Shown here: in pieces, positions 1-36,241 of the stretch
Layout of the letters: each line of letters starts with the position of its first letter
How positions within the stretch are numbered: position 1 is the stretch's first letter
Notes under the pieces: model-generated
Told to the model about the DNA's origin: nothing
The model's input: the letters and a program-made list of their open reading frames with translations, nothing else
The model's database searches: none
Source of the DNA: Baffinella frigidus
Taxonomy: Eukaryota > Cryptophyceae > Cryptomonadales > Baffinellaceae
Length of the DNA: 36,241 nucleotides
NCBI GenBank assembly: GCA_026770585.1
Contig: MU646368.1
Coordinates: forward strand, 787,686-823,926
Reading direction: 5' to 3'
Translations under genes and position numbers: made by a program

Positions 1-64
1 CCTCGGGCTTCTTAGCCTTGCTCGCGGCGAGCTCCGCGGCCAGGTCGCCGTACAGCTTCCGATC
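1..64 (-). CDS. GCN1: GCN1 exon 27, partial (residues 834-854, cut by window edge)
   Basis: Encodes [20 protein letters not shown] then E, the lysine-rich linker before the EF3-like region. Acceptor CAG|G at 65-67. The exon leaves the window without a visible donor. Confidence 0.82.

Positions 65-36241: not shown

Follow-up and report, generated by a model that had tools for sequence, protein, structure and literature searches.

Directional partial copies of exons in introns of Baffinella frigidus as probable scars of local duplication across exon edges

Introduction

How do introns come to hold partial copies of the exons that they separate, and why does a copy keep one splice edge and not the other? 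The question is raised by a stretch of nuclear DNA from Baffinella frigidus, an Arctic single-celled cryptophyte alga. The stretch, called the window here, is 36,241 nucleotides long and was placed by genome search at 787686-823926 of contig C66 (MU646368.1), in an assembly of 382 Mb and 1364 contigs. It carries GCN1 on the minus strand (window 2-21272) and, on the plus strand, a second gene, referred to as the SEL1 gene, whose assembled peptides match the hypothetical protein T484DRAFT_3309765 of B. frigidus (P0029). An earlier note on the window had proposed that its introns grew by tandem duplication of segments crossing exon-intron boundaries. We find this mechanism partly supported, being right in outline and incomplete in detail.

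Gene models

A codon-only gene finder called copies as exons, and homology-anchored alignment was used instead for GCN1. Its full exons were set independently of the copies by dynamic programming, in a spliced alignment of the genomic sequence to a protein profile built from five GCN1 homologues. The resulting model has 29 exons and 818 aa, and is in frame and open throughout. With two pieces merged, it aligns to the homologue P0003 with 38% identity over 830 columns and 31 gaps. The analysis of copies used 26 exons: model exons of 8 and 18 bp were removed, and the modelled pieces 852-908 and 616-639 were replaced by a single exon at 616-690, a merge that settles which of two near-equal pieces is the copy and leaves the other 25 exons unaffected. 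A phmmer search with one exon against PDB chains gave no match. A GCN1 paralogue was considered as the source of the copies and set aside; exon 16 alone was searched and gave a single match in the genome.

For the SEL1 gene, spliced alignment regenerates T484DRAFT_3309765 from window exons except at the junction preceding the last exon. Exon 7 has an apparent GC donor at 27724-27725 (+) and, because this donor was disallowed, the path contains a 2-bp pseudo-exon at that junction. The exons past 29 kb are ab initio predictions with weaker support.

Partial copies of GCN1 exons

The two introns beside each exon were searched with the exon plus 12 flanking bases, and a match of at least 30 bits covering at least 15 exon bases was taken as a copy. 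GCN1 has 50 such partial copies in adjoining introns, all 50 on the strand of the exon and none inverted, distributed over 21 of the 26 exons. The control, with non-adjacent introns, gave 3 matches of at least 30 bits in 600 comparisons, two of them from the same exon/intron pair. The claim that most exons have partial copies in their adjoining introns is thus borne out. At 30 bits or more no copy was found in the adjoining introns of exons 1 (21167-21272, with a 5' end not at an AG), 2 (20168-20259), 11 (11595-11645), 13 (10579-10623) and 22 (2680-2716, a weakly supported exon). These coordinates, and those of the following two paragraphs, are on the minus strand.

Several exons are copied on both sides. 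Exon 3 (19482-19556) has one acceptor-bearing copy upstream (19821-19865) and two donor-bearing copies downstream (19220-19271 and 18991-19051), exon 5 (16687-16787) has one upstream (16972-17049) and three downstream (16471-16566, 16310-16345 and 15861-15896), and exons 10 (12080-12196) and 24 (1489-1603) have one on each side (12422-12483 and 1720-1804 upstream, 11868-11975 and 1143-1200 downstream, respectively). The exon that had been described as preceded by three copies and followed by two is exon 17 (6307-6414), and these were all recovered, at 6509-6576, 6664-6733 and 6829-6888 upstream and at 6043-6143 and 5830-5932 downstream. Two similar descriptions were recovered in part. The exon said to have four copies before it and two after is probably exon 15 (8740-8841); both downstream copies were found (8410-8508 and 8217-8259) but only three upstream (8931-8974, 9104-9159 and 9265-9289). 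The 'exon 4' said to have two and three is probably 18259-18378, also exon 4 of the present model, which has the two upstream copies (18525-18587 and 18661-18731) but, at 30 bits or more, two downstream (17925-18008 and 17630-17687).

Other exons are copied on one side. Downstream copies, given here after the coordinates of the exon, are those of exons 6 (15062-15111; 14913-14936 and 14475-14508), 8 (13632-13709; 13506-13540 and 13436-13486), 9 (13194-13283; 12760-12821), 14 (10209-10322; 9984-10083 and 9760-9848), 16 (7610-7846; 7397-7478 and 7200-7226), 19 (4590-4691; 4416-4487), 20 (4205-4296; 4017-4089, 3799-3871 and 3601-3676), 21 (3353-3442; 3135-3223 and 2970-2991) and 23 (2327-2451; 2095-2166 and 1877-1946). 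Upstream copies are those of exons 7 (14215-14265; 14341-14372 and 14654-14685), 12 (10814-10873; 11123-11192, covering 58 of the 60 exon bases), 25 (616-690; 848-911) and 26 (2-64; 215-282 and 435-504). Exon 18 (4904-5029) has an upstream copy at 5133-5164 and an internal copy, with no edge kept, at 5640-5665.

Polarity of the copies

The copies keep different edges on the two sides of an exon. All 30 downstream copies of GCN1 exons carry the donor edge alone. Upstream, the acceptor edge alone is carried by 17 of 18 copies and neither edge by one; the two copies of exon 26 were left out of these counts because the window edge cuts that exon. Fisher's test gives P = 3.6e-13 when the copies are treated as independent. 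Collapsed to 27 exon sides, the result is donor only for 16/16 downstream sides and acceptor only for 10/11 upstream sides, the remaining one being mixed. Among the 30 downstream copies 29 have an intact splice dinucleotide, as do 18 of 19 upstream copies. Furthermore, the two kinds of copy are ordered along the intron: where an intron holds both, the donor-bearing copies of the first exon all precede the acceptor-bearing copies of the next in eight of nine cases, the lone interleaved intron being that between exons 6 and 7.

In that intron, the copies of exons 6 and 7 at 14341-14936 follow in the order 6, 7, 6, 7, perhaps through an intron-internal tandem duplication of a copy pair.

Distance from the exon is a poor guide to the copies. 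Copies farther from the exon are no less identical to it (rho -0.17, P = 0.23, 50 copies), and distance therefore does not stand for age; the earlier note had suggested comparing divergence with distance, and no correlation emerges. Nor is there a trend in length, the nearer copy being longer in seven comparisons, the farther in six, and the two equal in nine. A census of local direct repeats in the window gave 76 pairs, of which 47 involve a modelled exon, 14 join copy to copy and 15 involve neither; modelled exons make up 11% of the window, and 11 of the 15 non-exon pairs lie beyond 32.9 kb, a region without exon models. The census supports exon-centring without proving it, because faster divergence of introns favours the detection of pairs that contain exons.

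Repeats of this kind might be suspected of being artefacts of assembly, with an unmerged haplotype or contig ends set side by side. The readable assembly is indeed interrupted by long runs of N, and the differences between exons and copies are mostly synonymous, as between alleles. Such artefacts, however, would break exons and ignore splice edges, whereas the GCN1 model is open in all its exons, the copies are polarised at exon edges, and several copies of one exon have different break points and divergences. We regard an assembly origin as very improbable.

The second gene

The SEL1 gene has 21 same-strand copies and one inverted copy. The rule seen in GCN1 is followed by 15 of the 21, comprising eight downstream copies with the donor only and seven upstream copies with the acceptor only, one of which is weak (73% identity). 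The claim that the polarity is consistent in both genes is borne out for GCN1, with the counts given above, and for the most part in the second gene. No copy was found for exons 1 (21588-21827) and 2 (21950-22315, with Sel1 repeats). Exon 3 (23530-23585) has a downstream copy with the donor edge (23734-23773), exon 4 (24033-24111) has downstream copies at 24310-24380, 24437-24481 and 24558-24643, and exon 5 (25664-25792) has copies upstream (25213-25286 and 25462-25544) and downstream (25920-25976). For exon 6 (26586-26684) there is a weak 28-bp internal match alone, at 27303-27330, a place that also weakly matches exon 7. Exon 7 (27601-27723) has a downstream copy at 27916-28031 and weak upstream ones at 27300-27340 and 27465-27536.

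The inverted copy (25153-25192, minus strand) is 93% identical to the 5' part of exon 4 and is the sole opposite-strand copy in the exon-against-intron comparisons.

Six same-strand copies of the SEL1 gene are exceptions to the rule. One, 24558-24643, nominally carries both edges (77 of the 79 bases of exon 4 fall in its stringent stretch), one lies downstream with an acceptor, against the rule, and four have neither edge. The against-rule copy and two of the four edge-less ones are copies of the annotated last exon, 28709-28777, which is probably itself a copy. Its reading runs into an in-frame stop, whereas the neighbouring segment 28970-29056 stays open and holds 3' sequence common to two further copies. 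The true exon 8 is likely to be 28970-29056, with a donor that is not canonical; its would-be copies lie upstream at 28615-28761 and downstream at 29317-29433 and 29709-29754. If this segment is the true exon, the three exceptional copies obey the polarity rule.

The published T484DRAFT_3309765 ends at the in-frame stop in 28709-28777 (+), and this segment looks like a partial exon copy that was taken for a terminal exon. For annotation of the B. frigidus genome the copies are a hazard: it is in one of them that the second gene's published protein seems to terminate.

The ab initio exons farther along the plus strand have copies also: 30177-30275 (upstream 29959-30029, downstream 30582-30635), 31014-31085 (upstream 30817-30855), 31278-31352 (downstream 31478-31549) and 32263-32371 (upstream 31678-31717 and 32136-32179, downstream 32705-32782). 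The 5' ends of the last two differ between predictions. The SEL1 'exon 14' example of the earlier note (34.3-35.5 kb) lies beyond the exon models, in a region with many direct repeats.

Copies beyond the window

Partial exon copies extend beyond the window and onto other contigs. Eight C-terminal exons of GCN1 lie on the same contig about 37 kb away, past an unbroken run of 36,535 N that lies directly below the window. These eight exons form the out-of-sample set, seven window items misplaced on the profile being excluded. Five of the eight have copies, eight in all and none inverted, and all eight copies follow the polarity rule, six of them downstream with the donor and two upstream with the acceptor.

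Twenty random 10-kb stretches were taken from other contigs, of which 13 were N throughout and seven readable in whole or part. The test applied to them works without gene models and scores the side on which the reading frame continues past a repeated coding-like stretch. It found 28 pairs of coding-like repeats. The coding flank lay on the predicted side in 16 and on the opposite side in none, and the others gave no information; these 16 derive from four of the seven stretches and, with some copies recurring in several pairs, are not all independent. The same test gives 27 to 2 in the window, on which the codon score was trained.

Spacers between exon and copy

Some of the duplicated units are clean: 1944-2166 and 2164-2386 are 95% identical and belong to a 220-bp array of exon 23 with its intron, and 2998-3223 and 3204-3429 are 90% identical with a 206-bp unit that includes the 3135-3223 copy of exon 21. 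Most pairs are less simple. Considering the copy nearest to the exon on each side, four of 28 pairs nearly abut, with a gap under 40 bp. The spacers of the remaining 24 were compared, unanchored, with the far side of the copy; 16 share sequence with it out of register and eight are unrelated filler. At least three of the 16 (exon 3 upstream, exon 5 upstream and exon 9 downstream) barely exceed the control with other introns, and some matches lie beside the next copy. Tandem duplication with later slippage and insertion could thus account for about 20 of the 28 nearest pairs, and eight need unrelated filler. Of the earlier proposal, local duplication across exon edges is supported, but plain tandem duplication is not the whole of it.

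Among the 16 nearest downstream pairs there are 14 in which the collinear match runs 1-14 bp beyond the donor and the copies lie 81-362 bp apart. Of all 30 downstream pairs, 24 lose collinear homology no more than 14 bp from the donor, and of the 12 nearest upstream pairs 7 lose it within that distance of the splice edge. Compared with uniform placement, the intronic share of the repeat deviates strongly in the 30 downstream pairs (KS P = 8e-10) and less so upstream (P = 0.03). The eight spacers without similarity to the far side speak against our main account, and they include those of young copies: the copies of exons 15 and 19, both 96% identical, lose collinear homology 4 bp past the donor. 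The copy of exon 20, at 98.6% identity, loses it 2 bp past the donor, yet its spacer shares sequence further out.

The content of the 24 spacers is mixed. Eleven match other compared sequence, at least three of these being also rich in telomere-like repeats, four contain telomere-like repeats only and nine match nothing. One recurrent component is an interspersed element, family 1, with a core of about 104 bp. Between exon 14 and its first downstream copy it lies at 10088-10191 (-), and in the next spacer of that exon at 9880-9983 in the opposite orientation (+); a truncated element lies in the spacer of exon 19, and another element at 20688-20808. A further core, at 31371-31474 (+), separates the ab initio exon 31278-31352 from its copy and sits between two 75-bp direct repeats, 31293-31367 and 31478-31552. 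The core is flanked by conserved bases, 5' GACTATTCTCAAGTTGAC and 3' AATAGACTGAGACAGAGCTAG, and its ends are partly inverted-repeat-like. A first look gave 1253 candidates genome-wide, of which 40 were scored. Taking as tight flanking a direct repeat of at least 35 bits with both gaps no longer than 60 bp, eight of the 30 elements with readable flanks are closely enclosed by direct repeats of 43-127 bp, and the other 22 are not; the eight comprise three of four in the window, the three that prompted the test, and five of 26 elsewhere. Three of the 22 have a looser repeat of at least 35 bits, and cross-paired flanks, as a control, reached that score in three of 174 cases. As 22 of 30 copies lack tight repeats, the element is not in itself what produces them; it is caught in, or attracted to, duplication sites. 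Its location is inside spacers, and as a creator of introns or a source of splice sites it is a candidate only.

These observations bear on a rival explanation, in which filler or a mobile element enters at an exon edge and 30-130 bp at that site are duplicated along with the insertion, so that the copies would be target-site duplications and the spacer inserted DNA instead of duplicated intron. Insertion with such a long target duplication would explain the eight unrelated spacers, the homology that so often stops beside the donor, the opposite orientations of family 1 in the spacers of exon 14, and the eight tightly flanked elements. It does not account for the 22 elements that are not so flanked, for the 16 spacers that share far-side sequence or for the four pairs that nearly abut, and some characterised introner families, as described by Gozashti et al. 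(PMC9860276), make target duplications of only 3-9 bp. The version in which most copies are insertions of this kind, with no tandem spacer, was dropped as the main account on the evidence of the 16 shared spacers. In its general form the explanation is possible, though doubtful.

Other repeats in the window are recorded here in their own right. Long degenerate telomere arrays of the plant type (TTTAGGG-like) lie in introns on both strands, for example at 14367-15390 and 23779-24015. A 168-bp repeat at 31837-32004 and 33538-33704 is 93% identical, and its copies also match inverted (85%), as a palindromic element does. A 118-bp inverted pair, 26066-26183 and 26711-26828, is 96% identical, and one member starts 27 bp past the donor of SEL1 exon 6.

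Geometry and selection

The polarity is a consequence of geometry and not separate evidence of selection. When a tandem duplication spans a donor, the exon is completed in the first copy and the fragment with the donor necessarily falls downstream; duplication over an acceptor is the mirror case. Therefore, the polarity shows local duplication across edges, not by itself selection.

Selection, we infer, is visible instead in the copies that are missing. None of the 27 nearest copies is complete, against 9.6 expected from random placement on the exon if the duplicated unit equals the observed spacing (median 206 bp), with P = 2.4e-6. With the aligned repeat alone as the unit, 7.0 complete or wholly internal copies would be expected among 27; none is complete and all cross an edge (P = 1.2e-4). 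The exon edge is crossed in all 28 nearest pairs, and one copy that is not the nearest, that of exon 18, is wholly internal. The suggestion of the earlier note that only duplications leaving one complete exon survive finds its support in this deficit.

Coding-like copies

Nonsynonymous change in the copies is about half of what dead copies should show. Differences between GCN1 exons and their copies comprise 146 synonymous and 100 nonsynonymous changes, a context-matched ratio of 0.24 (0.16-0.35 by bootstrap over exons), with 0.22 for downstream copies alone and 0.31, with an upper bound of 0.46, for upstream copies alone. The second gene has 47 synonymous and 26 nonsynonymous changes and a ratio of 0.21, counted on 18 of its 21 copies after removal of the weak match to exon 6 and of those that precede exon 7; both genes together give 0.23 (0.17-0.31). 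Copies that were dead from birth, with the exon alone constrained, should show about 0.5. GCN1 copies contain one stop in 875 codons, and eight of the 50 have indels. The low ratio counts against our main account and could come from gene conversion by functional alleles of a diverse population, from use in splicing or from a mutation bias that the calculation does not capture. By our estimate, the excess of synonymous differences would require a synonymous diversity of exons near 10% in the case of conversion.

A second feature concerns the inner start of the 30 downstream GCN1 copies: in 13 there is an AG no more than 2 bp away. The 30 are not independent, since copies of the same exon can share a break point. 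An example is the first copy of exon 20, which starts at 4089 (-), right after an AG. The controls give 18.5% of 5000 random intron positions and, for the matching position within the exon, 6/30. There is no excess of GT in upstream copies at their inner end (4/20 against 20.8%). The AG excess makes some downstream copies look like small exons, which our main account does not predict, and from their sequence some could be acting as such.

On another rival account, some copies serve as exons in alternative transcripts or did so until a short time ago. The low ratio, the near absence of stops, the few indels and the AG excess speak for it. Against it, no nearest copy is complete, upstream copies lack a matching GT excess, and the copies are not independent, several having a common break point. 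Moreover, exons 1-7 of the second gene are joined directly in its published predicted protein, with the intervening copies left out, and the copy-free GCN1 model needs only 31 gap columns in 830 against P0003. On balance, use as exons seems quite unlikely.

A broader proposal is that the copies are not passive. Duplication would then be coupled to exons, with collinear homology ending at the splice site even in young copies, and the copies would be kept coding-like, often starting at an AG, through conversion by functional exons, perhaps of other haplotypes in a highly diverse population, or through service in splicing. We hold this to be unlikely. If it were true, introns would hold a record of exon alleles or a supply of alternative exons, and duplicating repair would act preferentially at exon edges.

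Proposed mechanism

The exon copies are probably the scars of recurrent local duplication across exon boundaries in the nuclear genome of B. frigidus. A stretch starting in an exon and ending in the adjoining intron, or the reverse, would be duplicated head to tail. Extra DNA, such as a minisatellite, a telomere-like repeat or an interspersed element, would sometimes be caught between the copies, as in error-prone repair of staggered breaks. Duplication over the donor would leave a whole exon and a donor-bearing 3' fragment downstream of it, and duplication over the acceptor would leave, on the upstream side, a 5' fragment with the acceptor. If a whole exon were copied, or the duplication lay wholly inside one, the mRNA would be altered and the duplication lost. 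Slippage and insertions would later scramble the spacers, so that collinear homology often ends near the splice site.

To judge by their sequence, the copies can soundly be taken to offer decoy splice sites, a reading strengthened by the intact splice dinucleotides and by the AG at the inner start of 13 of the 30 downstream copies. Most copies would offer one strong splice edge with no clear partner one exon length away, so that recognition of splice sites as pairs flanking an exon (exon definition) would continue to select the full exon.

The lengthening of introns is mostly told in terms of transposons. In the genes examined here, introns would have grown through local duplications over exon boundaries, which leave a readable, directional record. 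Such a record makes it possible to test the rate and break points of duplication, the strength of selection against whole-exon copies, and the means by which the spliceosome picks the full exon among many near-identical decoy sites.

Comparison with known systems

Our literature searches among open-licence PMC papers found no description of directional exon-edge copies as a genome-wide mode of intron growth. Several known systems share part of the pattern. Introners, as presented by Gozashti et al. (2022, PMC9860276), resemble it in that a high-copy short element, here family 1 with its core of about 104 bp, occurs in introns beside the exon copies. The target duplications given there for some characterised families are short, unlike the 43-127 bp repeats that flank family 1 where flanking repeats are present, and most family-1 copies are without them. 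The main text of that paper contains none of the words cryptophyte, Baffinella and Guillardia. Duplicated exons of the cassette or mutually exclusive kind have both splice sites; here none of the 27 nearest copies is complete, and the 13 of 30 downstream copies with an AG at the inner start are possibly shorter exons.

In the AGGT model of intron gain (Hellsten 2011, as cited in PMC4974935), a purely exonic segment containing AGGT is duplicated and supplies both new splice sites. As here, tandem duplication of exon sequence leaves intron sequence derived from an exon, with the protein unchanged. Unlike in that model as cited, duplication here takes in a splice site that already exists, and the copies carry the edge of that one side, not both splice sites from a duplicated exonic AGGT; eight of nine introns are ordered donor-first.

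For the repair step there is a parallel in rice, where insertions of 10-1000 bp, attributed to patch-mediated break repair (Vaughn and Bennetzen 2014, as cited in PMC7407515, section 4.3), are described as tandem or partly tandem duplications, some with captured DNA, and ascribed to staggered nicks and end joining. That passage is silent on exon edges and intron length, unlike the present case. Fill-in at the ends of breaks is named as a source of small tandem duplications in PMC8355091.

A boundary-crossing case in print is the potato RdRp gene, with a tandem genomic duplication over an intron-exon boundary (Ma, Lan and Niu 2016, PMC4974935). There too, a segment spanning an exon edge was duplicated locally, head to tail, and the parental splice signals were used again. 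As reported in that paper, the potato case is one event, which yielded a new intron and added exonic sequence, whereas in B. frigidus many events per gene have left fragments inside introns. In these sources, boundary-crossing duplication is in print as this single potato case.
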